Part shown: piece by piece, positions 7,526 to 24,747 of the stretch
Layout: every line of letters starts with the position of its first letter
Position numbering within the stretch: position 1 is the stretch's first letter
From: Clostridiaceae bacterium
GTDB taxonomy: Bacteria > Bacillota > Clostridia > Saccharofermentanales > Fastidiosipilaceae
Direction of reading: 5' to 3'
NCBI GenBank assembly: GCA_012520525.1
Contig: JAAYOA010000043.1
Span: 1-39,901 of the forward strand
Length of the DNA stretch: 39,901 nucleotides
The notes under the pieces: generated by a model
The model's database searches: none
Told to the model about the DNA's origin: nothing
The model's input: only the letters and a program-made list of their open reading frames with translations
Program-made: the position numbers and the translations under genes

Positions 7526-8416
7526 TTATTCGTCTTTGATGTTACGACCAGTAGCGTATTTTGCTTCTCTCTCACGGATATCGGGTAAACCAACCATGCG
7601 ATTAAATTCAGGGAACGGGATCATGTCGTCCACCATATTGGCCGTTGTGCCTTCTGCTTTGAGGCGTTTCATGAGATTTGCCATAGCAGCAGCAGTCACG
7701 TAGGTAGAAGCTGTAGGATAAATTACAACGTTGTAACCCAGCTCTTCGAGGCGCTCATTCGGAAGAAGTGGGGTACGACCGCCTTCAACCATGTTGGCAA
7801 TCGTCAGTGCATCAATTTCATCGTTAATGCGCTTCATCTCTTCTTCGCTCTCGGGAGACTCAATGAAGACAATGTCTGCACCGGCTTCAGCAAAGGCCTT
7901 GCCGCGTTTGATTGCTTCATCAATGCCAAGCACTGTACGAGCATCCGTACGAGCCATAATCATGAAGTCCGGATCACGGCGAGCATCAACTGCCGCTTTA
8001 ATTTTTCCGATCATCTCGTCTAGGGGAATAACTTCGCGACCAACCATGTGACCACATTTTTTCGGCATGACTTGATCTTCAAGTTGAATCACGGCAACGC
8101 CGGCTTTTTCATATCCGCGAACTGTGCGGCCTACATTGATCGCATTACCAAAGCCGGTGTCCGCATCTGCAATGACGGGGACATCGCCACAGGCTTCGAC
8201 AAAGCACTCGGCCCGCATAACCATTTCAGAGTAGGTCATCAGACCAACGTCTGGCATACCAAGGTGACTAGCTGATTGACCATAACCGGTCATGTAAACG
8301 GCATCAAAACCTTCTTGACAAATAATTCTGGCTGTCAGTGCGTCGTGAGCTCCTGGCGCAATCAACATACGGCCTTCGGCAAACATCTCTCTGATACGGG
8401 TCGTGTTACGTTTCAT
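7526..8416 (-). CDS. dml: 2,3-Dimethylmalate lyase
   Basis: A 296-residue member of the isocitrate lyase/PEP mutase superfamily. It carries ADADTGFGN with Mg-binding aspartates D84/D86 and the catalytic loop KKCGHMVGRE with C121 and H123. In the nicotinate pathway it cleaves (2R,3S)-2,3-dimethylmalate to propionate and pyruvate, the final step. Methylisocitrate lyase (PrpB) has the same fold and motifs, so the assignment rests on the surrounding pathway genes. The gene follows the GlmL-like gene by 7 bases and its ribosome site AAAGGAG lies inside the end of that gene. A hairpin follows it. Confidence 0.88.
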   Translation of the reverse strand: MKRNTTRIREMFAEGRMLIAPGAHDALTARIICQEGFDAVYMTGYGQSASHLGMPDVGLMTYSEMVMRAECFVEACGDVPVIADADTGFGNAINVGRTVRGYEKAGVAVIQLEDQVMPKKCGHMVGREVIPLDEMIGKIKAAVDARRDPDFMIMARTDARTVLGIDEAIKRGKAFAEAGADIVFIESPESEEEMKRINDEIDALTIANMVEGGRTPLLPNERLEELGYNVVIYPTASTYVTAAAMANLMKRLKAEGTTANMVDDMIPFPEFNRMVGLPDIREREAKYATGRNIKDE

Positions 8417-8423
8417 AATTAAA

Positions 8424-10016
8424 TTACTCCTTTAATTTTCTTTTTTTGGCGGCTTCTCTCTGTTGTCGAAACCATTCTTTATGTTCTTCATCATCATGTA
8501 ATGCTTCTAAATCAAGCTTAGGTGGTTCATAAATAACCGGTTTGGGGCGTTCAATCACTTGTCCCGTAAATTGTTCGGATCGCATAAAGTTAAAAACTGC
8601 ATCCGGATAGTAGAGACCTAAAGTGCCTAAAGCAAAAACGAGATAATGTTTGTCAAATAGGAACTTGGGTTCTGTCGGGAATAATGATGGCCCAGGATCT
8701 GAAAAAGCCCGACCTAAAGTGATTTGATTAAACTCTTCTGCATGGTTGGCAAACATGCCACCGATGCCGAGGACTAATTTGACTTTGCGCAAATCTCTGC
8801 CAACTGGGAATCCCGGCAATACACCTGTATCTGGATTGTATTCCTGAACAATATATCCTGCGTGTCGTTTGAGAGAAACATGGATCGCTGCAATAGCAAG
8901 TGCCTGATCGAGTTTATCTTCCCAATTTGCCTCTGCAATTAGCTCAGTATTCTTCTTGCGTTCGCGGGCGTATTCTTCGATCATTTCAAGATTCTCAAAC
9001 TCAATTTCGTTATCGGGATCAAGAGTATTTACAATCTGTTCCAAAGACTCCGCGCCGACGGCATCGACGATACCTGTAGCACTGACACGCATACCAAGAT
9101 TACCTTCAACCGTTCGATAAGAGGCCTGTTTCTCATTGTTAATAATCAGACCAATTTCCTCGTCCCGTAGATCAGCAACCCCAGGTAAAACCGAGTGTAT
9201 GTCGGTGGTTGCACCACCTACATCGATCATTAAGACATCACCGAAACCTTCTTGATTCCGCGTGCCATTGGCCCAGAGTTCACCTGCTAACAACACCGCA
9301 CCTGGCGTCGGACGAATCTCTTTATCTTCCACAAGATTGACAAGATTCTCCAACCCTTTAGCGTTCGTCAGTTGTTTGATAAATTCATGGTGAATAGCTT
9401 CCCGGGCAGACGTTACATTTAGTCGGTGTATGGTAGGCATGATATTTGGACACACGACAAAATTAACGTCGTGGGTGTTCAGAATTTCAATAACCTGTGG
9501 CTGTGCCTCTTTATTGCAGGCAATGACCACCATACAACTCAATTCTGCCTCAACGATTAATCGCGCATTCTCTACGGCAGATTCAATTTCACCACCATCA
9601 GTACCACCCGCCAACAAAATAATGTCTGGCTTGATCTCTCGCAAGATTTCTAAGCGATAGGTGGGCGAATCCTCGTGAGAAATGACCTCGAGCACTCTGG
9701 CTCCCGCACTCATTGCAACTTCTTTGGCTGCTTTTGCAGTAACTCTAGGCATAAAGCCCATGGCCACCATGCGCAAGCCTCCAGCGGCACTGCACGTTGA
9801 GTAATATTTGACATCATCGGAAATCTCAATCTCTTGTGTTTTAAGTTTTGCCGTCGCTTTGTCGACACCTTCCATGATGTCATTCAATGTGGTCGGTGAC
9901 TGAGCTCTGCCTAGGAAATCCAAGTGATCTTGGTCCAATGCAAAGGCAACCGCTTTTGTATAGGTCGAACCGACGTCATATACGATAATATTTGCTTGCC
10001 TTTTTATTGTTTGCAT
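8424..10016 (-). CDS. GlmL/MutL-like ATPase, putative reactivase of the B12 mutase
   Basis: A 530-residue protein of the MutL/GlmL family of actin-fold ATPases, best known as the gene encoded between the two subunits of glutamate mutase. The phosphate-1 motif VYDVGSTYTKA is at residues 12-22 and a second phosphate motif, MIDVGGATTDIHS, lies near residue 265. The C-terminal ~60 residues are highly charged. It lies between the methylitaconate isomerase and dimethylmalate lyase genes, downstream of the B12-dependent mutase. A role in exchanging damaged cobalamin or keeping methyleneglutarate mutase active is the natural inference by analogy with diol dehydratase reactivases. The ribosome site is weak (AAATAAACGG), so translation may be coupled to mii, which ends 12 bases earlier. 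Confidence 0.8.
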   Translation of the reverse strand: MQTIKRQANIIVYDVGSTYTKAVAFALDQDHLDFLGRAQSPTTLNDIMEGVDKATAKLKTQEIEISDDVKYYSTCSAAGGLRMVAMGFMPRVTAKAAKEVAMSAGARVLEVISHEDSPTYRLEILREIKPDIILLAGGTDGGEIESAVENARLIVEAELSCMVVIACNKEAQPQVIEILNTHDVNFVVCPNIMPTIHRLNVTSAREAIHHEFIKQLTNAKGLENLVNLVEDKEIRPTPGAVLLAGELWANGTRNQEGFGDVLMIDVGGATTDIHSVLPGVADLRDEEIGLIINNEKQASYRTVEGNLGMRVSATGIVDAVGAESLEQIVNTLDPDNEIEFENLEMIEEYARERKKNTELIAEANWEDKLDQALAIAAIHVSLKRHAGYIVQEYNPDTGVLPGFPVGRDLRKVKLVLGIGGMFANHAEEFNQITLGRAFSDPGPSLFPTEPKFLFDKHYLVFALGTLGLYYPDAVFNFMRSEQFTGQVIERPKPVIYEPPKLDLEALHDDEEHKEWFRQQREAAKKRKLKE

Positions 10017-10028
10017 ATTTATAACCGT

Positions 10029-11183
10029 TTATTTCATCAATTTATCTAATTTTGCTTTATCGACATAGACATAGCCTTCCATGACGCGACGAGCAGTCCG
10101 TTGGAATGATGTCTTTTCTACTTTTCCGTCTTTTACAATTGCCTGAACGGGCAGTACACCAGCAGGGTGACCGATGCGGATCGCTTCGTCATCACTGCGT
10201 TCACGCATCACTTCGTTGACAATGGTGCCCTCGATACGCGCTGCTGCACCGGTACAAGCCGTAGCTGTTCCAGCATAAGTTTTATGCAGTACTTGCATGA
10301 ACATCAAACGCGCAACGAAGTCAACATCGTCAGCTTTGATGGTCTCACCGGTTGAGAAACTGACATAATCCTTGGGTTCACGAACCATGCAGATCATCGG
10401 GAAAGCTGGTGAACTGGCTGTAGCATCAGCTTCGTCCTTTGCCATGCCAATCATGACTGTAGCTTTAGCACGCAATTCTTCCAAGTTTTTCAGCAGTTCA
10501 GCATTGCCATCGATCTCAGCAGGTGTTTCGGTGCCATCAATACCCATATCAGATGCGAGAACAAAGACACAGGGATTAGCCACATCGACGATGGAAACAG
10601 TCTTATCGCCAAAAGATGTTTTAATTGTGTCTTTGACATTGCCTGTGGGGAGGGTCTTGCCTGTAGCAGCACCGGCTGTACCTGCAAAGTCCATCCAAAT
10701 TGGAGCCGATGTTCCGGGAACACCAGCGATGCTGCAGTCGCCTGCTACAGCAGCGTGACCATCTCTAACTTCAACTTCGGCTTTCAATATTTTGCCGGTG
10801 TTAGTGTTGTGAATACGGACTGTTGTCACGGGACCTTCAGCATTGACTAAGGATTCGTCGATAGCAAAGGGTCCAACTCCGGACGAAATATTGCCACAGT
10901 TGCCGTTGTAGTCGACCAGTGGAGAATTGATACTAACTTGACCAAATGTATAATCTACATCAGCGTCGGGATGGGTTGACGGACCGATGATCGCTAGTTT
11001 GCTGGTCAACGGATCAGCGCCTGCCAAACCGTCGATTTGACGGACATCGGGACTACCGAAAATTGACAGAATAATTGCATCGCGTTCTTTTTGATCTTTT
11101 GGCAGATCGTTTTCTTTAATGAAAATACCTTTACTTGTGCCACCACGCATGATGACGACTGGAACTCTTAATTGTTCGCTCAT
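10029..11183 (-). CDS. mii: 3-Methylitaconate delta-isomerase
   Basis: A 384-residue PrpF/DAP-epimerase-fold isomerase. It converts (R)-3-methylitaconate to 2,3-dimethylmaleate by moving a double bond without a cofactor. K62 (TSKLAI) and C96 (NGNCGNIS) fall at the positions I recall for the proposed catalytic residues of the E. barkeri enzyme. The N-terminal PVVIMRGGTSKGIF is the family hallmark. It lies between the mutase that makes its substrate and the GlmL-like gene, with a GGGTGAGG ribosome site. A 103-base spacer with a GC-rich hairpin separates it from the mutase gene. Confidence 0.9.
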   Translation of the reverse strand: MSEQLRVPVVIMRGGTSKGIFIKENDLPKDQKERDAIILSIFGSPDVRQIDGLAGADPLTSKLAIIGPSTHPDADVDYTFGQVSINSPLVDYNGNCGNISSGVGPFAIDESLVNAEGPVTTVRIHNTNTGKILKAEVEVRDGHAAVAGDCSIAGVPGTSAPIWMDFAGTAGAATGKTLPTGNVKDTIKTSFGDKTVSIVDVANPCVFVLASDMGIDGTETPAEIDGNAELLKNLEELRAKATVMIGMAKDEADATASSPAFPMICMVREPKDYVSFSTGETIKADDVDFVARLMFMQVLHKTYAGTATACTGAAARIEGTIVNEVMRERSDDEAIRIGHPAGVLPVQAIVKDGKVEKTSFQRTARRVMEGYVYVDKAKLDKLMK

Positions 11184-11286: not shown

Positions 11287-13143
11287 TTATTTTTCAAGAC
11301 CGCGTCTCTTGATCTCTTCACTGACCCAAGCTACGCACTCTTCCGGCTTGCTCTCCGGACCAAAGAAGTTGTCAACACTGATGAAGTCGGTACCCTCTTC
11401 TCTGATCTTCTTCTCATACATTGCGTGTTCTTCTTCTTTTTCAGCAATCCGACCGCCGGCAAAACAGACAACTTTATCGCGCAGTCCAAGTGCTTCTAGT
11501 TTCTCGGACACACGGGGGAACAGCGTAATACCAAGACCTAATAAGTTACTGACGCCTACAGCTGTCGCACCTACTTCAGCAGCAACTTCAGCAACAGTCT
11601 CTGGTAAGTTCATACCGCGCAGATAGACGACGTCATAGCCTGCTTTGACAAATGCTTCACGAACGGTGTTAATACCAACAACGTGGGCATCGGCACCGAC
11701 TGTAGCCAAGACTATCTTTTCTTTACGCGTCGGTTTTACATCCGCAATAACTTCGACCTCTTCTGCGGTCAACGTCATCCTCGTCTCATCAACGCCCAAG
11801 GGAGTATAGCCCGGAACATAGCGTTTGATACCGTCCTTGTCGCGATTGACACGAACGTGACGCTTCAAGTCCCAGCCACCAGCTCTCGGACAGTCAAGAA
11901 TACCGCTCTTACCACCATTGACGATCAAGTCGATCAACTCATCATCAGTCCACTGACGCCAGAATTCCGGTGTGATATCTTGTGTAGACAAGCTGTTGGG
12001 TTCGAGGTGTAGACATGCTTCTAATACCGCCAAAGCCTCGTCTATGATCTGTTCTTTGCGTTCTTGGATGCGCGAGTCTTCAATATCAACGGTATATACA
12101 CTATCAAAGACATTCTGAGTACCCCAGATGGCTCTACCCATGGAGTCACCGGTTGGAATACCAACGGACTCTGCAGCCTTTGGACGATAGAAGTTGGCAC
12201 CACCCAATTTTGCATTTACAGCCATACGGGCAAAGTGAGCTGCTTCTGCGATCAAATCACCTGGTGGGTTTTGGAAAGTTTCCGGAACAACGATCAGACC
12301 GTTACTCCAGCAGACTTCTCTGAACACACGCATAACCGCCAAATCTTGGAACATATTGATGCCAGAAATATTCATCTGGATCGCACTGAGTTCCTTGGGC
12401 AGACCAGCGTGAATAGCCAGACCTTCAGCAAGTAGACACATCGCCAAAGCCATTCCATCGGTACCGCCGATGTTGTTCAGATGTTTATGTGAGTCTAATT
12501 GAACGTAAATGTTGTTCTCAGCACAGACTTGCAGCGCTTTGTACCCATTGACAACTTTAGTCTTATAATCATGGATGCCACGACCACCAAAGTGAACGTG
12601 GATGACAGGACCGATGTCAGTGCCGTCAAACCCTGCAATCAAAGCATTGATGATTGAAATATGAGGTGTATCACCCGTCGCATTGATACGAACTGGGTGA
12701 CGGCTACCGCCGCCCATTTGGATGAATTCGCGCTCACCCTTAGGGGTAATACCACCCTTGCCGCGGGACTGCTCAATCAATTCACGACCTTTCAAAGGAT
12801 CAATATGACGGGTCGCTTCCGAGTGAACAAAGTGGAAGACTGTCGTGTCGAATTTTTCTGGATAAGCATACATCTCCAGAGATTCTTTTAAAGTTTCTTC
12901 GGCAGTATTTCTACCCAAAATAGGATTTTGTGCAGGAATACCTGATTCCCTAGCCTTGCGACCCAACTCATAAATACGATAGCCGCTACGCACAACCCCT
13001 GCCACTTCACGGGGATATGGAGCCGGCAGACCTACGACCTCACCATTTTCATCCAAATCCGGCATTTCTACATCAAACGCATCCGCATAGGCACGAATTA
13101 CATCAATGTCTTCTTTAATTATTCTTTTAGTTTTCTCCTGCAT
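11287..13143 (-). CDS. mgm: 2-Methyleneglutarate mutase, adenosylcobalamin-dependent
   Basis: A 618-residue carbon-skeleton mutase that rearranges 2-methyleneglutarate to (R)-3-methylitaconate by a radical mechanism. The large N-terminal part is the substrate-binding barrel. The C-terminal domain from about residue 475 is the B12-binding Rossmann fold, with DxHxxG as D485, H487 and G490 (the base-off/His-on signature), SNLLG at 532-536 and GG at 563-564. The length matches the single-chain E. barkeri enzyme, unlike two-subunit glutamate mutase. It starts behind AGAGGAG, 12 bases after dmdB, and is followed by a hairpin. It is the B12 consumer that gives cbiK and the GlmL-like gene a purpose here. 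Confidence 0.93.
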
Positions 13144-13155
13144 GATATTCTCCTC

Positions 13156-13656
13156 TTATGCCTCTTTATCTATGCCTAAATCAGCTCTAACTCGGGGAAT
13201 CAAACCACCATAAGACAATGTACGTTGTACAGTCTCAGAAAGTGGTGCAAATTCAAACGTTTCACCGTTAACGACCACTTCACCGGTGCTTAAATCAACC
13301 GAGATTTCATCACCATCTTTAACTTTATCAACAACGTCCGCCACAAATACCGGCAAACCAATGTTGATACTATTTCTTCTAAAAATCCGAGCAAAACCTT
13401 GGGCAATTATTAATTTTACCCCAGCTTGTTTCAACGCGTGTGGTGCTTGTTCACGCGAAGACCCACACCCAAAGTTTCTGCCTGCAACCATAATGTCGCA
13501 TGTTTTAATTTTATCCTTAAAATCCAGCCCCGGTGCTCCCGCCATTGCGAAGTTGGAAAGCGTCTCGAAAGGCTCTGCCATTGCATAACCTGGCAAAATT
13601 TGGTCTGTGTCGACGTTATCACCGAGCACGATAACTTTTCCTGAAATCTTAGTCAC
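13156..13656 (-). CDS. dmdB: 2,3-Dimethylmalate dehydratase, small subunit
   Basis: A 166-residue LeuD/aconitase-swivel-domain protein. The motif GRNFGCGSSREQAP (residues 59-72) holds the Ser/Arg residues that bind the substrate in aconitase-type hydratases. With DmdA it hydrates dimethylmaleate to (2R,3S)-2,3-dimethylmalate. It starts with GTG behind AGGAG and lies 15 bases after dmdA. Isopropylmalate isomerase small subunit is the closest alternative; the operon context and absence of other leucine genes argue for DmdB. Confidence 0.88.
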   Translation of the reverse strand: MTKISGKVIVLGDNVDTDQILPGYAMAEPFETLSNFAMAGAPGLDFKDKIKTCDIMVAGRNFGCGSSREQAPHALKQAGVKLIIAQGFARIFRRNSINIGLPVFVADVVDKVKDGDEISVDLSTGEVVVNGETFEFAPLSETVQRTLSYGGLIPRVRADLGIDKEA

Positions 13657-13671: not shown

Positions 13672-14865
13672 TTAAGCGTTCTCTGCACCTGGTTCAACAA
13701 TTTCTCCTTTGACTGCAGATAGAACTGCGGTCAACGGTGAAGCTAAATAGATCTGTGCTTCGGTACTACCCATACGCCCCGGGAAATTCCGGTTTGTCGA
13801 TGAAACGACGACATCGCGCGGTGTAACCAGTCCTTCATGAGCACCAAAGCAAGGACCACAGCCTGGATTCAGCAAAGTTGCTCCAGCGTTGCGAATGACT
13901 TCCGACCAACCTAAGCGGTCCATTTCATTCTGGATTTCCCTCGAAGCAGGGAAAACTAGCATATTCACATGGGACGCAACCTTATGATCCTTTAATACGT
14001 TATAAACTTGTTCCATATCGTTGAGGCGACCATTCGTACAGCTGCCCACGGCCACCTGAGTGATTGGTGTACCGGCGACTTCTGATACAGGTTTGACATT
14101 GACCGGTGAGAACGGACAGGCAATCTGTGGCTTCAGATCAGATAAATCAACTTCCAACGTACGCATGACATCGGTTTCAGGTTCTTCGTCACCGAACAGG
14201 GTAATCATGCTGCCCAATTCGGTACCCATATTGCAGACAGTCATCCGCTCAGCAATAGAGAACTCATTGATGCCGGGGCCTGAAATGATCAAGCCACGAT
14301 CCGTCAAATAGTCAGCGCCAAATTCGGCGGCTAAGAAAAGAATCAAATCCTTTCCGGATACATAGGGAGAAAGTTTACCTGTTAGAACAACATTGACAAC
14401 TTCGGGGACTTCGACATCGAGTTTGCCAGTAGCCATCGCTGCTGCCTGCTCAGTTGAGCCTACACCGATGCCGATGGCCCCGTAGCCGCCACATGTGCAT
14501 GTGTGGGAATCAGCGATTACAACTATATCCCCAGGTTGCACATCAAATTTTTCATGTAGGACCTGGTGGATCACACCCTCGCCTTTTTCAAATAAATGCG
14601 TGCCATAGCGCTCGGCAAAATCTTTCATTTTCCAAACACCCTGACGAGCTTTCTCTGTTGAAGCGGGATAAATATGGTCAACCACCATAAATACCCGATC
14701 CGGGTCGAAGACGCGATCAACGCCAATGGCCTCAAATTGATCGATAGCAATCGGTGACGTAACGTCGTGGGCGCCAACATAAGCAACTTGGCAAGACAAA
14801 TCATCACCCGGCTTTGTTGTCTTTACCCCTGCGGCTTGCGCCAGCCATTTTTCTATACGATTCAT
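13672..14865 (-). CDS. dmdA: 2,3-Dimethylmalate dehydratase, large [4Fe-4S] subunit
   Basis: A 397-residue LeuC/aconitase-type protein. The three cluster cysteines are C276 (VGSCTNGR) and C336/C339 (NPGCGPC), and the nucleating ADSHTCTCGGYGA segment lies at 119-130. It forms the heterodimer with DmdB that hydrates 2,3-dimethylmaleate. Two adjacent ATGs (14868 and 14865) follow GGAGGT; the second has the better spacing. It lies 36 bases after the PTS-IIC-like gene and 15 before dmdB. The leucine-pathway enzyme has nearly the same motifs, so the substrate call depends on context. Confidence 0.88.
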   Translation of the reverse strand: MNRIEKWLAQAAGVKTTKPGDDLSCQVAYVGAHDVTSPIAIDQFEAIGVDRVFDPDRVFMVVDHIYPASTEKARQGVWKMKDFAERYGTHLFEKGEGVIHQVLHEKFDVQPGDIVVIADSHTCTCGGYGAIGIGVGSTEQAAAMATGKLDVEVPEVVNVVLTGKLSPYVSGKDLILFLAAEFGADYLTDRGLIISGPGINEFSIAERMTVCNMGTELGSMITLFGDEEPETDVMRTLEVDLSDLKPQIACPFSPVNVKPVSEVAGTPITQVAVGSCTNGRLNDMEQVYNVLKDHKVASHVNMLVFPASREIQNEMDRLGWSEVIRNAGATLLNPGCGPCFGAHEGLVTPRDVVVSSTNRNFPGRMGSTEAQIYLASPLTAVLSAVKGEIVEPGAENA

Positions 14866-14901
14866 CATTTACCTCCAGGTCCTATAAAATCGTTCTATGT
14901 C

Positions 14902-16032
14902 TTAAAGTGGAAGTTTAACATCTTCTGAAGTAAACCATCCCATTTTGCGGAATAATTGGCCGAACAGCCATGTCAACACGGCAGGCAATACAATACAAAT
15001 TAAGAGCAAGCCGATCCAATCCATGGCTGTCGCTGCCGTGGCAGTCGCACCCATTTCGATGGCGCGCTCACTGGGGGTTGCCCAACCTGCGATAACACCA
15101 ATCGGACCAACCATACCTGATGTACCCATACCAGAAGAGATCGGCGGGCCGTTCATCTCTAGCTTAAATACTAATGTTGCAATTGGACCAGTGATAGCCG
15201 CCGTCAACGTCGGCGGAATCCAAATCCGCGGATTCTTCATGATATTTGGCACTTGTAACATCGATGTACCGAGACCCTGAGCGATCAAGCCGCCAGGTCC
15301 ATTCTCTTTATAGGTCATAACTGCGAAACCAACCATTTGAGCACAACATCCGGCAGTTGCCGCGCCACCTGCCAGACCAACAAGGCCTAGGGCCGCGCAA
15401 ATCGCCGCCGAGCTGATCGGCAATGTCAGTGTAATACCGACGATGACAGATACTAAAATACCCATCAAGAATGGTTGCATGTTGGTTGCCCAGACAATGG
15501 CATTACCAATGGCTGCTGCCACTGCACCAATGCCAGGAGCCCACCACAGTGAGAGACCTACACCAACGAAAATTGTTACTAAAGGTGTTACCAAGATATC
15601 AATCTTCGTTTCCTTAGAAACTAGTTTGCCAAATTCAGCTGCAAAGATTGCAACGATCAGGACAGCTAATGGACCGCCTGCACCGCCGAGTGAGTTCGCG
15701 GCTATACCAACACCAGCCAGTGAAAAGAGTACCAACGGTGCGGCATGAAGTGCATGTCCGATCGCGACAGCCATCGCCGGACCAGTTGCCTGCATAGCGA
15801 ATGCACCCATTTCGATCAAAATCTCGAAAAATTTAGCTTCACCAAATGCATTTGTCAGCTGAACACCAACAGTATTTAATATTGTACCCATCAACAGTGA
15901 TGCGAAGAGACCTAAGGCCATCGAGCCCATAGCATCAATTGCATACCGTTGAAAAGAAATAACAACATCTTTCTTTTTTAAATAACGACCTACTTTACCA
16001 GGTTCTTTTTTTGTTTTAGAATCTTTACCCAT
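14902..16032 (-). CDS. Orphan PTS EIIC-like membrane protein, candidate nicotinate transporter
   Basis: A 376-residue integral membrane protein with about eight to ten hydrophobic segments rich in Gly and Ala, after a lysine-rich cytosolic N-terminus (residues 1-25). It resembles the PF13303 group annotated as PTS subunit IIC, which usually stands alone. No EIIA or EIIB gene or domain is present, so sugar phosphorylation is unlikely. It lies inside the nicotinate operon between hgd and dmdA behind an AGGTGA ribosome site, and it is the only transporter-like gene there. Uptake of nicotinate, or export of an acid product, is the contextual inference. The closest non-transport reading is a regulatory or structural membrane protein of the same family. 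Confidence 0.72.
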   Translation of the reverse strand: MGKDSKTKKEPGKVGRYLKKKDVVISFQRYAIDAMGSMALGLFASLLMGTILNTVGVQLTNAFGEAKFFEILIEMGAFAMQATGPAMAVAIGHALHAAPLVLFSLAGVGIAANSLGGAGGPLAVLIVAIFAAEFGKLVSKETKIDILVTPLVTIFVGVGLSLWWAPGIGAVAAAIGNAIVWATNMQPFLMGILVSVIVGITLTLPISSAAICAALGLVGLAGGAATAGCCAQMVGFAVMTYKENGPGGLIAQGLGTSMLQVPNIMKNPRIWIPPTLTAAITGPIATLVFKLEMNGPPISSGMGTSGMVGPIGVIAGWATPSERAIEMGATATAATAMDWIGLLLICIVLPAVLTWLFGQLFRKMGWFTSEDVKLPL

Positions 16033-16075: not shown

Positions 16076-16954
16076 TTATTTCTCTTGCTGTACTTCCTGC
16101 CAATATTTTACGAGAGCAGATATGTCTAAACGATTCATGCCTGCTGCACGAGCCATTTCATAGACTTGATGTGCCATCGCTGTCATTGGCAGTGGTGTTT
16201 GACTGCTGGTACCAGCTTCGAGAGCTAATCCGATGTCCTTATACTGTAAGTCAATCGCGAAGCCTTTATTGTAATCTTCGGTCATGATAAAGTTTTCCAT
16301 CTTCGCTGTCAGGGCATAACTGTTACCAGAGCTGACGCCAATAATCTCTTGCATTGTCTCCAATGAAAGGTCGTGCTTGAGACCCAGATTAATGGCCTCT
16401 GCCAGAGCAGCCATATTAGCGCCGAGCAATAAATTGTTAACCATTTTAATTGCGTTACCTGCACCATGTGAACCGACGTGGAAGATTTTTTTGCCTAATA
16501 CATTGAGCACAGGCTCAATGATCTTGAAGGCTTCGTCTTCGGCACCAACCATAATGGTCAGTGTTCCTTTAGTTGCACCAGCAACACCACCACTGACTGG
16601 GGCATCGACATAGTGTACGTTTTTAGCTTTTGCTTTCTTGGCCAATGATTTGGATGTGGCTGGAGCGACAGAACTCAAGTCAACAATAACAGACCCTTCG
16701 CGCATATTATTAATAACGCCACCTTCACCACCCATAACTATGTTCAATATTGCTGCATTGGGTAGAGATGTGAAGATAATGTCTGCTTTTTGAGCAGCGT
16801 CTGCTTGACTATCAGCAGCCACAGCACCTTCTGCAACCACCTTGTCTACCGCTGCTTGCACAACGTCAGAAACAACAACCTCGTAACCATTCTTGACCAG
16901 ATTTGTCGCCATGGGACCTCCCATTGCGCCTAGTCCGATAAAACCTAAAACCAT
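16076..16954 (-). CDS. hgd: 2-(Hydroxymethyl)glutarate dehydrogenase
   Basis: A 292-residue beta-hydroxyacid dehydrogenase. The Rossmann motif GLGAMG is at residues 7-12, the substrate motif DAPVSGG at 117-123 and the catalytic lysine is K170 in GNAIKMVNN. It reduces (S)-2-formylglutarate with NADH to (S)-2-(hydroxymethyl)glutarate, reoxidising the cofactor after ring cleavage. D30 at the end of the second beta strand fits NAD rather than NADP. 3-Hydroxyisobutyrate and tartronate semialdehyde dehydrogenases share these motifs; the operon makes Hgd the best call. The ribosome site is GAGGAGATGA. A 175-base spacer precedes it. Confidence 0.88.
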   Translation of the reverse strand: MVLGFIGLGAMGGPMATNLVKNGYEVVVSDVVQAAVDKVVAEGAVAADSQADAAQKADIIFTSLPNAAILNIVMGGEGGVINNMREGSVIVDLSSVAPATSKSLAKKAKAKNVHYVDAPVSGGVAGATKGTLTIMVGAEDEAFKIIEPVLNVLGKKIFHVGSHGAGNAIKMVNNLLLGANMAALAEAINLGLKHDLSLETMQEIIGVSSGNSYALTAKMENFIMTEDYNKGFAIDLQYKDIGLALEAGTSSQTPLPMTAMAHQVYEMARAAGMNRLDISALVKYWQEVQQEK

Positions 16955-17129: not shown

Positions 17130-17711
17130 TTATCTCAAACCATCTTCGCCCTTTACTTCACTAAGTTGGAGACCACCAATCCGAGGATGAGGACGACCAC
17201 CGGTCGTGAAAGCCAGAGCAACGACAATCTCATCCGGCATCGGGGCATCAGGAATGCGAATTTCTATAGCATCGTAGTGAGTACGAACGAATGCTGCATC
17301 CTTGTAGTGAAGTGGAACATCTAATGTTGTACCAGCTGGACCGGCCTTTTTCGCCGAAGGTATGATTGCCTTACCGCCGCCAATAGCAGCCCGCATAGGT
17401 TTACCAAGCTTTGGATGAAGAATAGCAGCACCGTGCTCTAATTCTCCATCGAGACCAATGATTGCACCTTTGCCGTAGTTATGGATCGGATCTCCTTCAA
17501 GCACTTTAACGGCTATTTCAGAGAGATAACCACCGAGATATTCACCAACTTCTGTTAGTTCACCTAGGTCTTCAACATATCTTCCGGCAAATGGATTCTT
17601 GATGATTGCGGCCACATAGCAACGCTTGATCGATTTTTCTAACGCTTTAAAGCCTTCATAACGGATTTCTTCTACATGGGTAACAACTTTTCTAATTTCA
17701 GGTTTTTTCAT
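17130..17711 (-). CDS. DUF1185 'amino acid synthesis' family protein
   Basis: A 193-residue cytosolic protein recognisable as PF06684, a family named from gene neighbourhoods. A structure in the family is, as I recall, similar to the trimeric chorismate mutase/YjgF-type fold. The conserved block GGGKAIIPSAKKAGPAGTTL lies near 111-130, followed by VPLHYKDAAFVRTHYD and a Gly/Pro-rich FTTGGRPHPRIGG near the end. It starts behind AAAGGA. It is not one of the nine known nicotinate-fermentation enzymes, yet it sits in mid-operon between the UPF0280 gene and hgd. A role around the enamine or formylglutarate intermediates is possible but is only inference. Confidence 0.75.
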   Translation of the reverse strand: MKKPEIRKVVTHVEEIRYEGFKALEKSIKRCYVAAIIKNPFAGRYVEDLGELTEVGEYLGGYLSEIAVKVLEGDPIHNYGKGAIIGLDGELEHGAAILHPKLGKPMRAAIGGGKAIIPSAKKAGPAGTTLDVPLHYKDAAFVRTHYDAIEIRIPDAPMPDEIVVALAFTTGGRPHPRIGGLQLSEVKGEDGLR

Positions 17712-17811: not shown

Positions 17812-18714
17812 TTATCGCTCCACCATATGGGTAGTGAAAAAGTCATGTGGATGCAATTCTATAATGTCTTGTACAGCAATACTGATGCCTCGCAAAGTAC
17901 CATTATTAAGAAATGGTACTGCAGCTTCAGCAACTTGAGCAGCCGAACGCATCGCATCATCCTTGCTGAGAAGGGGAACAGCAGTAACAACTTCCAAGTG
18001 ACCGATGTCTGTCGTTGGATCAATCTCAGACGCAAGTCTGCGCTCAACCCCAGGCAGCGGCAAAAATGATTTATTTGCCAAGCTGGTCGCCAGAGCATCA
18101 ACTTCGGCTCCAGTTTTGCCAAGCACTGTCACTCCGTTGGCAATTCCTAAAGTTAAACTTCTGCCACCGACACCACTCGTAGCGATACCGCCGATGCCAT
18201 CTTCGCCAGTTATGCGAAGTATGCTGCGGCGACCATCGTGGTGCATATCGTGCAATACGGCCACAGTCAGAGATTCATGGGGAGCTAATCGCAGAGCAAC
18301 GTCACCGCCATTATTGACAAAAATTTTCGTTGCGCCCATTTCAGCTAAGCGCTCTACTAAATAATCGGACATCGCTCCTGCTACCGCCGCCATAGGCGTC
18401 AGCTCTGGATCATTACAATTCATAACAGCTGCGACCATTTTCCCAGGCACTGTATCCTTCGCTATAGCGTCATACTGGGATTGCTTCGACTTATCATAAC
18501 AATCGGTATTGCGAAGTATGGGCAGGTAACGAGTCGTTTCCTCCAACTGTTGGTAGATCGTATCGTAGATAAAAAATTCTAAGTCTGGTACAGGCACATC
18601 GTCGCGCATGACTTTAACAACCATCGTGACGGGACCAAAATCGACTAAATACGACCTATCCGGAAGCAATGAAACGGCCTTCTTTGCCCGTTCTTTTTTT
18701 TCTTCGTTATTCAC
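17812..18714 (-). CDS. UPF0280 family protein, ApbE-like fold, putative flavin transferase
   Basis: A 300-residue protein of the UPF0280 family. Three segments echo the FAD:protein FMN transferase ApbE: VNNGGDVAL (133-141), GIATSGVGGRS (176-186) and EVDALATSLAN (204-214, like the ADALST motif). It has no signal peptide or lipobox, so it is cytosolic, unlike classical ApbE. It starts with GTG only 5 bases after the 6-hydroxynicotinate reductase stop, and the end of that gene (GAAGGT) supplies the ribosome site, so the two are coupled. E. barkeri 6-hydroxynicotinate reductase carries covalently bound flavin, so attaching that flavin is an attractive but unproven role. Confidence 0.75.
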   Translation of the reverse strand: MNNEEKKERAKKAVSLLPDRSYLVDFGPVTMVVKVMRDDVPVPDLEFFIYDTIYQQLEETTRYLPILRNTDCYDKSKQSQYDAIAKDTVPGKMVAAVMNCNDPELTPMAAVAGAMSDYLVERLAEMGATKIFVNNGGDVALRLAPHESLTVAVLHDMHHDGRRSILRITGEDGIGGIATSGVGGRSLTLGIANGVTVLGKTGAEVDALATSLANKSFLPLPGVERRLASEIDPTTDIGHLEVVTAVPLLSKDDAMRSAAQVAEAAVPFLNNGTLRGISIAVQDIIELHPHDFFTTHMVER

Positions 18715-18719
18715 GCGTG

Positions 18720-20243
18720 TTAACCTTCAAACTCTTTTCTAACTTCTTCAACGGGACGAATCTCTGATATATGACCTTCGATGGCTTCGTAGTCTTCCCG
18801 AGTCATTGTATATTCAACCGGGCACACCGTTGCCGGTGTCGGAACCCAAGTAAAGGCCTTATTAACCACTTTTCCTGTGTCAACCATAAAGTTAATACCG
18901 CCACCTGGCATAACAAATGCAGGGGCACCGCCAATCGTCAGGACAGCCTTATTAGCATGGACGGCTTCTGTGATCCCCACTGGGCGCTTACATACGCCAC
19001 CGCGGGCACTACCACCCGTGCCACCGACATACAAGACTGAGGTCGTAGACTGTTGACAGTTATTGGTAATGGTCTGAACAAGTTCCATGGCTTTGTCCGT
19101 CATTGGGATACTCTTGACATCGCCGTCCTCGAGCACTTCAAACATTTCGTAGATCTCGCCCGTTGTATTCGTGACGAGAATCGTCATACCAGGTTTGGCG
19201 AGGTTCATATCGATCGATTTGATTGCATCTCTAGGCGTGGCAATAGTCGTACCGCCAATTCCTTCACCGTGCTCACCAAAATAACGTCCTGCAGAAGAAC
19301 GCGTTGCATTGGGCACAACTCCCGTCCAGGTTAGACCGACTTCCCGACCAGCCAAGTGCTCAGAGAGAAGTCCCACGACATGATGATCAATGACTATACA
19401 TTCGTCCACAGCTTCTTTCATGCGATCTGCGAACAGACCAATGGTGGCACTGCCACAACCGATCCGCATGACACTTTCTTGGACACCATTAATAATGGGT
19501 GCATTGCCATGTTGGACGGTAACCGTAATTTTCTTATTTACTTTAAGAGTAACTTCTTCGCCGTTAGCTAATTCAACGATGGTTCTAGCGACGATAAAGC
19601 CGTCTTTGCCCGTCAATAAATTAGCTCCGCCAATGGCAATCATCTTGGAACCATATTGCTCTGTTTCAACCAGACCAACAATTTTGTTGTCGCGGTATAC
19701 TGGATCGCCTTCTTCTCCAATATAAGTATTGGTATCAAGTTTTAAGGTTACTCCGCTGTAGCTCAAAGGCGCTTCGGTGACAACGGTGACGACTTCAACG
19801 CCATCCCGAATATCAGATACGATATGGGGTGCCGGTCTGATACAAGGATAATTCGATCCTGCACCCACACCGGTAATCAAAGGTTTTTGTAATATTGATG
19901 GGGGATAGGCTTTCTCGCACTTTTCGTTATTTAAAACTAATTTGCGATTGCGCACTAAAGTGCCGCCTTCATTTGTATAACGTTTGCAAGCACCTGTCCG
20001 TCCTTCGGGAATTCGGCATTGCACAGGACAAGATGTACACACCGTTGCTTCGGGACTTGGCTCTGCGGGTTTTTCGATGGCACTAAATGGACAGACACGG
20101 ACGCAGATGCCACATTCAATACAGCGATCATCAACTTCCGCTTTGCGTTTTTTCTCACCGACTGACACTAATTTTAGTGCATTAACGGGACAATTTTTGA
20201 CGCAAATGCCACAGCCAACACATTTATCAGTAATAATTACCAT
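18720..20243 (-). CDS. hnr: 6-Hydroxynicotinate reductase
   Basis: A 507-residue iron-sulfur flavoprotein that reduces 6-hydroxynicotinate to 1,4,5,6-tetrahydro-6-oxonicotinate, with ferredoxin-like electron supply. The N-terminus has two complete [4Fe-4S] motifs (C8/C11/C14/C18 and C41/C44/C47/C51). A third set, C69/C72/C76/C86, could hold the additional [2Fe-2S] cluster reported for the E. barkeri enzyme. That enzyme also contains covalently bound flavin; I do not see the classical FMN-binding-domain SGAT motif here, so the attachment site is unclear. The start follows GTGAGGATTAA. The gene is flanked by ena and by the ApbE-like UPF0280 gene. Confidence 0.9.
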   Translation of the reverse strand: MVIITDKCVGCGICVKNCPVNALKLVSVGEKKRKAEVDDRCIECGICVRVCPFSAIEKPAEPSPEATVCTSCPVQCRIPEGRTGACKRYTNEGGTLVRNRKLVLNNEKCEKAYPPSILQKPLITGVGAGSNYPCIRPAPHIVSDIRDGVEVVTVVTEAPLSYSGVTLKLDTNTYIGEEGDPVYRDNKIVGLVETEQYGSKMIAIGGANLLTGKDGFIVARTIVELANGEEVTLKVNKKITVTVQHGNAPIINGVQESVMRIGCGSATIGLFADRMKEAVDECIVIDHHVVGLLSEHLAGREVGLTWTGVVPNATRSSAGRYFGEHGEGIGGTTIATPRDAIKSIDMNLAKPGMTILVTNTTGEIYEMFEVLEDGDVKSIPMTDKAMELVQTITNNCQQSTTSVLYVGGTGGSARGGVCKRPVGITEAVHANKAVLTIGGAPAFVMPGGGINFMVDTGKVVNKAFTWVPTPATVCPVEYTMTREDYEAIEGHISEIRPVEEVRKEFEG

Positions 20244-20380: not shown

Positions 20381-21541
20381 TCAAACAACTTTAGCTTGGC
20401 GCTTTGCGGGAGGGGTATTTCTGCTCTTGGCAGCTTTTACAACACCATCGATCATGATAATACTGATACCTGGAAGATCACCACACTCAAAGGCTTCTTC
20501 TGCTGTATCTGCTATAGATCCCATCGGTGCATCTAGGAATACTAAATCAGCCTCTTTTCCTGGTGCAATACAACTGGTATTGAGCTCATAAACACGAGCT
20601 GTGTTGCCAGAACCCATACAGACAGCCTCTGCACCGGTGACACCACTCATACAAGCCGCATAAGCGATGTTTCGGAGAATGCCTAGAGCCATAATGCCTG
20701 ATCCAGACGGTGAATCATTACCGAAAATAATGCGACCAAGCATACCTTTTTCTTTCGCGCGCTTGGTGACATAGTCAGCAACTTTGAAATTACCACATTG
20801 GACAATCTCGAGAGCGAATTCTGTATTGTCCATTATTTTGTCTACTTCTTCTAAGGAAATAGCAGTCGGACCACCGTTAATGTGGCTGACAACATCAGGC
20901 TCGGTCTCTATAACCATTTCAGCTGTTACAGTCGAGCTGCCCGGTATCGAAGTACCACCCGTATGCATCATAACTTTGAAACCATTTTTATGTGCCCATG
21001 CCACCATAGGTGCAGCTTCAGCTGGATCTTTGACGCTACCGAGACCTACTTCTCCTACGGTCCAGACGCCTTCCGCTGCCAGTTCTTCAAAGTCTTTCTC
21101 AACGAGCCCTTTTTCTAATATCAAACTGCCTGCATGAACTTTAACTCCGGATGGGGGTGCATTCTTGAATGATTTGTGGGCTAGGATTGCCAAAGCTTTA
21201 ACCCCCGAAGGATCCTTAGGACGACCTGGATAGTGACATTCACCCGCACTAATCATAGTCGTCACGCCGCCATGCATGGCGCTGCCGATAAAGTCATGGG
21301 TTTTCTGACGGTGACCGTAGTCTCCTACCGTTACGTGGGCGTGGGAATCAATCAATCCTGGCATGACTGAAGCGCCTGCAGCATCAATAACTTGATCAGC
21401 TTCAATTCCTGCACAGATATCCTCGCCGCCAATTTTATCAATTTTACCGTCTTTAATAACGATGCAAGAACCTTCTAAAACTGGTTCTTCAATATTACCA
21501 CTAAGAATTCTACCGATATTTTTTACTAAGGTTATACTCAT
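20381..21541 (-). CDS. ena: Enamidase
   Basis: A 386-residue amidohydrolase that opens the ring of 1,4,5,6-tetrahydro-6-oxonicotinate to ammonia and (S)-2-formylglutarate. The binuclear metal ligands are visible: H67 and H69 (DSHAH), E164 (GEVGLG), H193 (MHTGG), H220 (SHINGG) and D276 (GNDSPSG). Their numbers agree with my recollection of the Fe/Zn E. barkeri enzyme. A 27-codon upstream extension of the frame is rejected because the ATG at 21541 has an ideal AGAAAGGAG ribosome site and gives the family N-terminus. It lies 46 bases after the rubredoxin gene. Confidence 0.93.
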   Translation of the reverse strand: MSITLVKNIGRILSGNIEEPVLEGSCIVIKDGKIDKIGGEDICAGIEADQVIDAAGASVMPGLIDSHAHVTVGDYGHRQKTHDFIGSAMHGGVTTMISAGECHYPGRPKDPSGVKALAILAHKSFKNAPPSGVKVHAGSLILEKGLVEKDFEELAAEGVWTVGEVGLGSVKDPAEAAPMVAWAHKNGFKVMMHTGGTSIPGSSTVTAEMVIETEPDVVSHINGGPTAISLEEVDKIMDNTEFALEIVQCGNFKVADYVTKRAKEKGMLGRIIFGNDSPSGSGIMALGILRNIAYAACMSGVTGAEAVCMGSGNTARVYELNTSCIAPGKEADLVFLDAPMGSIADTAEEAFECGDLPGISIIMIDGVVKAAKSRNTPPAKRQAKVV

Positions 21542-21587
21542 AATTTGCTCCTTTCTGTGCCATTTTATGAACGTTTTCTTTAATGGC

Positions 21588-21767
21588 TCAATAGACGACA
21601 ACGACGTCATCCGGCGGTGCAAAATCTGATTTTAATGCGCCGCAAATGGGACATACCCAATCATCTGGAAGGCGCTCAAAGGGGCGCCCCGGCTCAATGC
21701 CTGCCTTAGGGTCACCCTTTTGGGGGTCATATATATATCCACATAAAATACATACGTATTGTTGCAT
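21588..21767 (-). CDS. Rubredoxin
   Basis: A 59-residue protein, short enough to be missed by length cut-offs. It has both iron-binding knuckles, C6/C9 ([10 protein letters not shown]) and C39/C42 (CPICGA), the KGDP turn, and [11 protein letters not shown] typical of rubredoxins. It is a one-electron carrier with a single FeS4 site in the cytosol. The ribosome site AAGGAG is well placed. It sits between the molybdopterin subunit of nicotinate dehydrogenase and enamidase, so it may carry electrons from the dehydrogenase or to 6-hydroxynicotinate reductase, or serve oxygen defence. The partner is inference. Confidence 0.95.
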
Positions 21768-21846: not shown

Positions 21847-24258
21847 TTAACGCTTGCGATTCATCTCTCGAGCGATATCAATATAAAGAATTGGCAGATT
21901 TCCAAAGTGGATGCCAACTGCATTTTCCACAGCGTCAGCACAAGCCGGAATGGTAGGAATGAGAGCCGGTTCGCCGACGCCCTTCGCACCAAATGGTCCT
22001 GCTTCTCCCTCACTCTCAACGATCAGCGGATAAATCTTTGGCGCATCCATCGCAGCCGGGATTATATAATCGGAGAAATTCAAGTTCTTAATTCGACCGC
22101 GAGTCAGTATGACATCTTCGAATAAGGCAAAGCCGATGCCCATGACGACACCGCCTTCGATCTGAGCTTCAACCATTTGTGGATTAACAGCTGTACCCAC
22201 ATCGTGCACCGAAATAACATTTTTCACTTCGGTCTCGTAGGTTTCAACATTAACTTCTAGGTCGACAATAGCCGTCGCATACGAATAGACCTCAAATGGA
22301 ATACCAGACATATCCTTCGGACTCAAATAGGTAGTCTTGGGATTATAGCTGCCTACACCGAGAGCCAACTTACCGATTCGACGCATTTCCATCATCAACA
22401 TTGGATATGTCATCTTGGTATCAGGATCTTCCCGATCCCAAATCTTTCTTTCTCTAAATATTAGACGTTCTGCAGGCACTTTGAGATAATCCGATGCCAC
22501 TTCCATCAATGTTTGTTTTGCCATATAGGCTGCATTTTGTGTGGCTTTACCAGAGATAAATGTTTGTCGGCTGGCCGAGGTCGCACCACCTTCTGGGGTG
22601 ACCATGGTATGAGCATATGTGACATTAATGTCCTCATAATTTAAACCTAATTCCTCAGCACAAATTTGTGCCATAACAGTGGTCGAGCCTTGACCGATAT
22701 CTGCGCATCCCACCAACAGGTTAACGCTACAGTCGCCTAATACTTCGACGAAGGCTCCAGCCGGATTGGGCAGACCGGTATTGCCGATGCCATACCACAT
22801 ACAACCGATGCCTAAGCCTCTCTTCTTATTCGGCGCAGAAGGTTGATAAGTCTCATCGTTAAAGAGCTCATTCATCTTCTCTCTCGCCGCTTCCAAGGTC
22901 TCAACAAAACCCACACTTTCGGTGAGTTCCTGACCTGTCGGAAGAATGGTACCTACGCGATGGGCATTCTTGATCCGCAAATCGATAGGATCCATGCCGA
23001 GTTCACGAGCCAAAGCATTCATTTGTCCTTCGTGGGCAATAGAAATCTGCGGAACGCCAAAACCTCGGAACGCACCAGACATAGGATTATTTGTGTAATA
23101 AAATTCAGCTGTAATATCTACATTCGGCACATAATAAGGACCAGTGGCGTGAACAACCGCCCGGGTAATAACAGCGGGACCATAAGATGCATAGGCACCT
23201 GTGTCTCCCGTCATGTGGATCTTCATTGCCAAGATCGTTCCGTCTTTTTTAGCGCCTGTCTTATAATGCATGGTCATCGGATGTCGTTTGGAAGAAACCA
23301 TGGTTGACTCTTCCCGCTTCCGCACCATCTTAATCGGACGGCCCGTGTGATAACAAAGCAATCCTAAGTGGCACTGGACACCGATATCTAATTTACCGCC
23401 AAAGCCGCCGCCAGTAGCCGCCTGAATAACATTGACCTTGTTGTGAGAAATAGCCAACATATTGGCAACTTCACCGCGGTCAAAGTGGGGGTTCTGGGTC
23501 GACACATAAATTGTCAAAATACCATTGACATATTCTGCGAGACCGGCATCAGGTTCGATAAACATATGGGATTTCATGCCCGAACTGTAGGTTTTCTCAA
23601 CAATGACGTCACATTGTTCAAACGCCGCATCCACATCACCACAGAAGAGGTGTTTAGATTGATGCAGATTGGTTTCGCCGTGAATCTTCGGCGAATCGGC
23701 CTCAGCGGCGCGATCAATTGTTAAAACAGCTTCGATTTCGTCATATTCGATTTCAATCGCATTCAGAGCCTCTTCTACAAGTTCTTCCGTTTCGGCTGCT
23801 ACTAAACAAATGGCATCACCGATACGACGGATCTTATTTTCGACAAGAATGGGCTCATCTTTAATGATAATACCTGTTTGGTTTAACCCTGGAATATCCT
23901 TATAGGTCAACACACAGGCTACACCTGGTATAGCTGCTGCTTTACTAATATCTAAGTGATCAATAAAACCAGCTGGAATTTTACTGCGGAAAACGCCACC
24001 ATACAACATATTGGGACGCTTCATATCTCCCGCAAACTGGGTCTTGCCTATGACTTTCTCATAGGCGTCTTTTTTATTAACATTCTTTCCTAGAACCGAA
24101 AAATCACGGTCTAGGGTTTCTGATTTTTGTGGTTGAGCCGGCACTTCTTGTGGCTCTACCGTCTTTCTCTGTGGCGGTTGTGTCACGACTTTGCTGTCGC
24201 GAACCGAAGTATCAATGGTTGCGGTTGTCTGCTCTGGATTGCGAACATTCTTTTTCAT
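21847..24258 (-). CDS. ndhL: Nicotinate dehydrogenase, molybdopterin subunit (NdhL and NdhM in one chain)
   Basis: An 803-residue xanthine-dehydrogenase-family molybdopterin subunit. It hydroxylates nicotinate to 6-hydroxynicotinate with NdhF and NdhS. Family motifs run in order: GGGFGGK 283-289, GAFRGFG 395-401, the GQGS cofactor loop near 522 and the catalytic-type Glu E763 in GVGEPA. In E. barkeri the same part is split into NdhL and NdhM, whereas here the frame is continuous. The first ~53 residues are a Pro/Gln/Thr-rich extension absent from the usual fold. No in-frame stop or UGA selenocysteine codon occurs, in keeping with the non-selenocysteine selenium known for E. barkeri. The ATG overlaps the ndhS stop as ATGA. 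Confidence 0.9.
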   Translation of the reverse strand: MKKNVRNPEQTTATIDTSVRDSKVVTQPPQRKTVEPQEVPAQPQKSETLDRDFSVLGKNVNKKDAYEKVIGKTQFAGDMKRPNMLYGGVFRSKIPAGFIDHLDISKAAAIPGVACVLTYKDIPGLNQTGIIIKDEPILVENKIRRIGDAICLVAAETEELVEEALNAIEIEYDEIEAVLTIDRAAEADSPKIHGETNLHQSKHLFCGDVDAAFEQCDVIVEKTYSSGMKSHMFIEPDAGLAEYVNGILTIYVSTQNPHFDRGEVANMLAISHNKVNVIQAATGGGFGGKLDIGVQCHLGLLCYHTGRPIKMVRKREESTMVSSKRHPMTMHYKTGAKKDGTILAMKIHMTGDTGAYASYGPAVITRAVVHATGPYYVPNVDITAEFYYTNNPMSGAFRGFGVPQISIAHEGQMNALARELGMDPIDLRIKNAHRVGTILPTGQELTESVGFVETLEAAREKMNELFNDETYQPSAPNKKRGLGIGCMWYGIGNTGLPNPAGAFVEVLGDCSVNLLVGCADIGQGSTTVMAQICAEELGLNYEDINVTYAHTMVTPEGGATSASRQTFISGKATQNAAYMAKQTLMEVASDYLKVPAERLIFRERKIWDREDPDTKMTYPMLMMEMRRIGKLALGVGSYNPKTTYLSPKDMSGIPFEVYSYATAIVDLEVNVETYETEVKNVISVHDVGTAVNPQMVEAQIEGGVVMGIGFALFEDVILTRGRIKNLNFSDYIIPAAMDAPKIYPLIVESEGEAGPFGAKGVGEPALIPTIPACADAVENAVGIHFGNLPILYIDIAREMNRKR

Positions 24259-24731
24259 TTGTTCAACCTCCGATCCCGAGCCAATTCAATCGCTTCTATG
24301 ATTTTTTCATAACCGGTACAGCGGCACAAATTGCCCGAAATGGACCGTTTAATCTGTTCGCGATCCGGCTCTTCATTCTCATCCAACAATGCTTTCGCCG
24401 CCAGTATCATGCCTGGCGTGCAAAAACCACACTGCACGGCACCTGCGTCGATAAAAGCTTGTTGCAGAGGATCTAATTCATCTTCTCCGTGAAGACCTTC
24501 TAACGTCACGACCTCTGTCCCTATGGCCTGACCGACCAAAATTAGACAGGATGTGACAGCTTTTCCGTTAAGAATCACCGTACAAGCACCGCACTCACCA
24601 ACTGAACAGCCTTCTTTAACACTTGTTAGACCTAGATCTTCACGCAAAAAATCTAGCAAGCGACGATTAGGGGCTGTTTCCCGTGAAATCGGTTCACCAT
24701 TGACGGTCATATTGACTAAAATATTTTGCAT
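24255..24731 (-). CDS. ndhS: Nicotinate dehydrogenase, [2Fe-2S] subunit
   Basis: A 158-residue small subunit with two [2Fe-2S] clusters. The plant-ferredoxin-type cluster uses C42, C47, C50 and C62 (CSVGECGAC...C). The second uses C101/C104 (CGFC) and C136/C138 (CRC). It shuttles electrons from the molybdenum site to the FAD of NdhF. I chose the ATG at 24731 behind GAGGGTGAAA; a GTG at 24743 would add four residues. It follows ndhF by 16 bases and overlaps ndhL by 4. Confidence 0.93.
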   Translation of the reverse strand: MQNILVNMTVNGEPISRETAPNRRLLDFLREDLGLTSVKEGCSVGECGACTVILNGKAVTSCLILVGQAIGTEVVTLEGLHGEDELDPLQQAFIDAGAVQCGFCTPGMILAAKALLDENEEPDREQIKRSISGNLCRCTGYEKIIEAIELARDRRLNK

Positions 24732-24747
24732 TTTCACCCTCACTCAC

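Follow-up and report, generated by a model that had tools for sequence, protein, structure and literature searches.

A stand-alone EIIC-like membrane protein of a clostridial nicotinate fermentation operon as a candidate niacin importer

The known niacin transporter families are NiaP (MFS), NiaX (an ECF S component), and NiaY, and one survey found them in only 25% of B3-auxotrophic gut genomes (PMC6593275). Nicotinate can also be fermented, as in Eubacterium barkeri; in the literature consulted on its nicotinate cluster, no assignment of the transport step was found. A third group of relevance comprises the EIIC proteins, such as PtsG, MalT, and ChbC, which work by elevator-type alternating access.

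The window analysed here, i.e., the whole 39,901-nucleotide stretch of a Clostridiaceae contig, holds an operon that encodes the same enzymes as the E. barkeri cluster: Ndh, Hnr, Ena, Hgd, Hmd, Mgm, Mii, DmdAB, and Dml are all present (Table 1). With the exception of Ena and Hgd, the enzyme names are presumptive, combining family matches with background knowledge of the pathway. Embedded in the operon, on the same strand and separated by 33 bp from the DmdA ORF and by 43 bp from the Hgd ORF, is a gene for an EIIC-like membrane protein. An earlier, sequence-only reading of this DNA had reported neither EIIA/EIIB partners nor a further transporter in the gene set, and indeed none was found among the operon proteins; parts of an ABC transporter lie at the far left of the window on the opposite strand (SBP_bac_6 at 17-388 and ABC_tran at 1228-2262). 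We propose, with a probability of about 0.78, that the EIIC-like protein is a stand-alone EIIC-fold carrier that imports nicotinate and that its clade relatives import niacin under the control of NiaR.

Table 1. Genes of the nicotinate fermentation operon in the window
Feature	Position	Strand	Basis
2-(hydroxymethyl)glutarate dehydratase (Hmd), serine dehydratase alpha chain relative	5986..7389	-	role from operon context
2,3-dimethylmalate lyase (Dml)	7526..8416	-	PEP mutase/ICL family
GlmL/MutL-type mutase accessory protein	8424..10016	-	family match
3-methylitaconate isomerase (Mii)	10029..11183	-	PrpF family
2-methyleneglutarate mutase (Mgm), B12-binding	11287..13143	-	family match; marker of nicotinate clusters
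2,3-dimethylmalate dehydratase small subunit (DmdB)	13156..13656	-	LeuD/DmdB family
2,3-dimethylmalate dehydratase large subunit (DmdA), aconitase family	13672..14868	-	role from operon context
EIIC-like membrane protein (PF13303), candidate nicotinate carrier	14902..16032	-	Pfam, structure model
2-(hydroxymethyl)glutarate dehydrogenase (Hgd)	16076..16954	-	PDB 3cky, 340.8 bits
AA_synth family protein (PF06684)	17130..17711	-	family match
PRK04334-type protein, weak ApbE match, adjoins Hnr	17812..18714	-	family match
6-hydroxynicotinate reductase (Hnr)	18720..20243	-	name from operon context
enamidase (Ena)	20381..21622	-	PDB 2vun, 553 bits
nicotinate dehydrogenase molybdopterin subunit, NdhL + NdhM in one chain	21847..24258	-	family match
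nicotinate dehydrogenase FeS subunit (NdhS)	24255..24743	-	family match
nicotinate dehydrogenase FAD subunit (NdhF)	24748..25623	-	family match

Two of the remaining operon genes, together with a second cluster of the source genome (L087, G000:C119:1-12219), deserve separate mention. In addition to an Hnr paralogue (39-40%), the second cluster encodes two amidohydrolases resembling Ena, a protein of the AA_synth family, and an NCS1 permease; it probably serves a related pathway for a different N-heterocycle. AA_synth is also present in most of the nicotinate clusters read. The PRK04334-type gene adjoins Hnr not only in the window but also in all 18 other nicotinate-cluster stretches with Hnr that were read, and it is absent from the second cluster. 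The Hnr of E. barkeri carries a covalent flavin, and the PRK04334-type protein could be a candidate flavin transferase for Hnr.

The EIIC-like protein is the 376-amino-acid product of an ORF with an ATG start and is encoded by the only PF13303 (PTS_EIIC_2) copy in the source genome. It matches this profile with 300.9 bits against a cut-off of 28.9, over positions 2-326 of 327, which bears out its initial description as a multi-span EIIC-type protein within the operon. PF13303 was the sole Pfam family found, with neither an EIIA or EIIB domain detected in the profile search nor a match to any MFS or ECF family, in which respect the protein differs from NiaP and NiaX. An AlphaFold model built from 52 aligned sequences (mean pLDDT 85.9, pTM 0.82) was structurally closest to PtsG (8qsr; Z 15.5, 307 residues aligned, rmsd 4.2), followed by MalT (6bvg, Z 15.2) and ChbC (3qnq, Z 11.7); unrelated rows in the same comparison fell to approx. 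Z 6, and the support from Foldseek alone was weaker (best E 1.7e-3). According to this model, the protein is predicted to adopt a glucose-superfamily EIIC fold across most of its chain, with a likeness to the three permeases that extends over approx. 310 residues and is reflected in the name of the Pfam family. At the sequence level, a phmmer search of the PDB returned no relative, and the profile of the PF13303 family matched that of E. coli PtsG weakly, over 39 columns only, so that catalytic residues are not mappable by sequence. The GITE string, which we take to be a motif of sugar PTS EIIC proteins, is absent from the protein.

The membrane protein PfoR is presumably related to PF13303 and is not known to have an assigned substrate. 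PfoR was once suspected of being a regulator, and the window protein might by the same token be a membrane sensor or regulator instead of a carrier; however, mutating pfoR is reported to have left pfoA expression unchanged (PMC4448169), which contradicts the supposed regulatory role, and an EIIC fold predicted over most of the length speaks for transport. A sensory role is therefore very improbable.

Judging from its Pfam name and predicted fold, the window gene could be an ordinary component of a sugar PTS that found its way into the operon by chance. However, the N-terminal domain of PTS enzyme I (PF05524) had no match in the source genome, which is 92.7% complete, nor in three other genomes with the gene in a nicotinate cluster (G608, G613, and G603) or in four genomes with niaR-linked relatives, although it was found in 10 of the 18 genomes tested. 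Because enzyme I was not found in the source and several host genomes, phosphorylating transport by the EIIC-like protein is unlikely. Moreover, EIIA and EIIB are neither fused to the protein nor encoded in the operon, and the placement of the gene in nicotinate clusters recurs, which makes a chance insertion of a sugar permease hardly credible. Thus, the window protein differs from PtsG, MalT, and ChbC in lacking EIIA/EIIB and GITE, in belonging to a genome in which enzyme I was not found, and in an operon and regulon setting that suits a vitamin rather than a sugar.

To follow the nicotinate pathway in genome scans, the Mgm mutase was used as a marker. It was found in 2 of 391 genomes of the class (the source and G441), in 14 of 398 genomes of the phylum (source included), in 2 of 5 genomes of the family of G790 (both already known), and in 6 of 25 genomes of the order of G918 (five of them new), giving 20 Mgm-bearing genomes in total; G004 (a 3.5 kb contig) and the second cluster of the source genome were left out. 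Looking for the same gene in other nicotinate clusters had been suggested as a check, and the EIIC gene does accompany nicotinate genes in 14 of these 20 genomes: the source, G441, G918, G758, G851, G790, G608, G613, G603 (on a second contig, beside the Ndh, Hnr, and Ena genes), G973, G978, G972, G971, and G969. Across the 398-genome sample, EIIC was present in 9 of 14 genomes with the mutase vs. 71 of 384 without it (Fisher p=3e-4; p=3e-3 without the source genome and one of a near-identical pair). In the tests on this sample, five genomes with weak PF13303 matches only (G734, G756, G800, G892, and G913) were left out of the PF13303-positive count.

On a 156-row tree, the cluster label required seven changes, six of which are made necessary by well-supported branches (SH-aLRT of 95% or more); block inheritance of one cluster does not account for this pattern. 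In the first tree, the window protein grouped with those of G441, G918, G758, and G851 (96% SH-aLRT) inside a 93-row clade (100%) that contains all 29 niaR-linked rows. In the second tree, which included five more cluster proteins and omitted long branches and unsure rows (L160, L169, L175, L189, L196, L197, and L199), the corresponding 96-row clade was still recovered at 100%, and the grouping of the window protein with other cluster members was no longer well supported. The cluster proteins of G603, G608, G613, G790, G969, and G971 lie outside this clade, in the company of PF13303 proteins encoded away from nicotinate clusters.

Each of the six Mgm clusters without EIIC contains, or has nearby, genes for transporters of other families (MFS, NCS1, SSS, or ABC): an MFS transporter related to the aromatic acid/H+ symport family in G939, G921, and G793 (assigned by a domain scan in G939, the other two being homologues of it), NCS1 in G655, SSS in G869, and ABC genes downstream of the cluster in G668. 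The G939 MFS transporter was absent from 22 other genomes tested, the source included. Other transporters also accompany EIIC itself: five of the 14 EIIC-bearing clusters (G758, G851, G918, G973, and G978) contain or adjoin a gene for an NCS1 permease, and an SSS symporter lies approx. 4 kb from the cluster in G441, another many-span protein 2-3 kb from the cluster in G613, and an ABC set resembling an iron or cobalamin importer inside the cluster in G790 (the G668, G613, and G790 proteins were named from sequence only). Because of this company, EIIC need not be the nicotinate carrier in such clusters, and, given the NCS1 permeases and the distant NCS1 homologue in the second Hnr/Ena-like cluster of the source genome, a second nicotinate carrier may exist besides EIIC.

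Carried further, the same observations could mean that nicotinate enters through another carrier and that the role of EIIC is to export, or to exchange, an acidic product or intermediate of the pathway, such as propionate, methylitaconate, or 6-hydroxynicotinate. However, the source-genome NCS1 shares only 26-28% identity with those of the nicotinate clusters and is encoded in an operon with different, paralogous enzymes; moreover, the nearest relatives of EIIC are tied to niaR at loci without nicotinate genes, and distant relatives end nadABC operons, as described below. Product-acid export, which the sequence-only reading had offered beside import, is thus disfavoured, and we regard it as improbable. 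The sequence-only proposal would have been refuted by a dedicated nicotinate transporter elsewhere that renders the gene dispensable or by a tight association of the family with unrelated substrates; neither was found, although the NCS1 genes in 5 of 14 clusters count against it.

Relatives outside the nicotinate clusters also point to a niacin substrate. A scan of GTDB genomes yielded at least 592 relatives, the best 80 of which are approx. 60-70% identical to the window protein and derive mostly from Lachnospiraceae, Oscillospiraceae, and other Clostridia; in none of these best 80 loci is a nicotinate cluster found around the EIIC gene. A gene for a NiaR-like protein directly adjoins EIIC in 18 of the 80. 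Sixteen of these neighbours were counted automatically, and L045 and L047, in which an over-extended EIIC ORF overlaps niaR, were added; a first neighbour parse had left out 11 of the 80 loci, in which an antisense ORF displaced the gene, and the recount took in all 80. The one NiaR-like neighbour scanned contains HTH_11 and 3H domains, the domain make-up of the niacin-responsive repressor NiaR (PMC7713382). Exactly one 3H-domain gene was present in each of the 17 locus genomes (from among the 80) tested for NadA and NiaR, i.e., 15 niaR-linked genomes together with L032 and L054; the last two are without both an adjacent niaR and an exact operator core, and both have NadA.

The exact 10-base core TGTCTTGACA was found between positions -200 and +100 relative to the EIIC start in 21 of the best 80 loci vs. 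0 of 914 control windows of equal size at other genes of the same loci; when one mismatch was allowed, the counts were 34 of 80 and 25 of 914, respectively. It should be noted that TTGACA within the core is a sigma-70 -35 box, an overlap that is allowed for because the 914 control windows serve as the comparison. This core agrees with the published operator of NiaR from S. pneumoniae, TACWRGTGTMTWKACASYTRWAW (PMC5343564), and an identical core precedes niaR in the niaR-nadA-nadB locus of G613. Ten of the 21 exact-core loci lack an adjacent niaR, so that 28 of these best 80 loci have an adjacent niaR, an exact core, or both, and 52 have neither. NiaR operators thus occur at EIIC genes of the near clade, but not at the window gene: no TGTMTWKACA site of the NiaR type occurs in the window, and no 3H domain (NiaR) in the source genome, as expected for a catabolic operon.

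De novo NAD synthesis requires NadA. This protein is missing in 14 of the 15 niaR-linked genomes tested, and in the source genome, G441, G918, and G758; the 398-genome sample includes 12 near-clade genomes, none of which has it (p=6e-5, a value confounded by common descent in a set with many MAGs). Because NadA is mostly absent, near-clade genomes probably need niacin. The trend is confined to the near clade: among distant members (at most 51% identity), 42 of 68 genomes have NadA, and for the whole family an association of PF13303 with NadA loss was rejected (NadA missing in 38 of 80 PF13303 genomes vs. 142 of 318 others, p=0.71). Nonetheless, some distant members (47% identical) are linked to NAD biosynthesis by gene order. 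In G735, G677, and G873, niaR, nadA, nadB, nadC, and EIIC follow one another on one strand with EIIC last; in G735, the EIIC match starts 13 bp after the NadC match, and the stretch between niaR and nadA contains a one-mismatch core in both G735 and G873. In G873 (L209 2816-4539), the nadA and nadB frames are incomplete and run into each other, and niaR, nadC, and EIIC are kept; possibly, this genome has recently lost the de novo route to NAD and retained the carrier.

The linkage to NiaR shows only that expression likely answers to niacin. In the vitamin clade, the transported NAD precursor might therefore be nicotinamide, quinolinate, or a nucleoside, with nicotinate as a substrate confined to the catabolic clade; alternatively, the carrier might accept niacin broadly. 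Two positions could mark such a change of specificity: position 305 (numbering of the window protein) is Cys in all of the best 80 of at least 592 relatives vs. Ser in 9 of 9 nicotinate-cluster proteins, and position 314 is Y/W in 74 of the same 80 vs. I/L in 9 of 9, in a comparison made before G973 was added. However, the vitamin-type residues, Cys and Tyr, occur in the G973 protein, whose gene belongs to a nicotinate cluster; this protein breaks Ser305/Cys305 as a marker of cluster proteins, and the change is thus not required. In addition, the nicotinate operon itself starts from nicotinate. This alternative as a whole appears unlikely, although it deserves more weight than product export.

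Niacin import remains the simplest reading because it accounts for the niaR linkage in gut anaerobes that mostly lack NadA, the position at the ends of nadABC operons, and the repeated placement in nicotinate operons. The suggestion that the protein imports nicotinate by a non-PTS mechanism is likewise supported by the niaR genes and operators beside relatives, the nadABC-EIIC gene order, the recurrence in clusters, and the absences of enzyme I. From this context and from the fold, we infer the substrate, the inward direction, and the manner of transport. A carrier that stands alone and has the glucose-superfamily EIIC fold would bring in nicotinate and so feed the fermentation operon, whereas other members of the PF13303 clade would import niacin as a vitamin and be repressed by NiaR. 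In degraders, which would need nicotinate in bulk, the carrier gene would have been placed in the catabolic operon. Like other EIICs, the carrier would use elevator-type alternating access, probably driven by H+ or Na+ instead of phosphorylation; alternatively, uptake could run downhill, drawn by rapid hydroxylation.

A niacin substrate may not hold for the entire PF13303 family, because distant members have no NadA-loss trend and have mixed gene neighbours without a general niacin link. In a survey of 72 PF13303 loci, three gave no EIIC match by tblastn, and the duplicates L154 and L157 were dropped. Distant PF13303 genes in L158, L177, and L178 adjoin a gene for a glycerate kinase-like protein, two of the three loci also have an upstream FadR/GntR-like regulator, and this branch may have a different substrate. 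In L141, L142, L162, L165, and L187, distant members follow a SelD-like gene, which in three of these loci is preceded by SelA- and SelB-like genes (neighbours in both sets were named by their sequences alone).

Within these bounds, we lean towards the broader view that a clade of PF13303 forms a further family of niacin carriers beside NiaP and NiaX, ion-coupled and working without phosphorylation, that fills much of the transporter gap in niacin-requiring gut Lachnospiraceae and Oscillospiraceae and has repeatedly moved into nicotinate operons. The near clade resembles NiaP, NiaX, and NiaY in its NiaR control, with niacin as the likely substrate. NiaY could be related to the PF13303 carrier; the label "nicotinate-regulated transporter BH3254" perhaps denotes NiaY. 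No paper assigning niacin to PF13303 was found among open-licence papers by title or the start of the abstract.

If this proposal is correct, the PF13303 carrier would explain niacin uptake in part of the remaining niacin-requiring gut genomes, and a widespread orphan Pfam family would gain a function. Annotation from Pfam alone would call such genes PTS components and could predict sugar use, whereas the fold of a sugar PTS permease would here handle a vitamin without phosphorylation.
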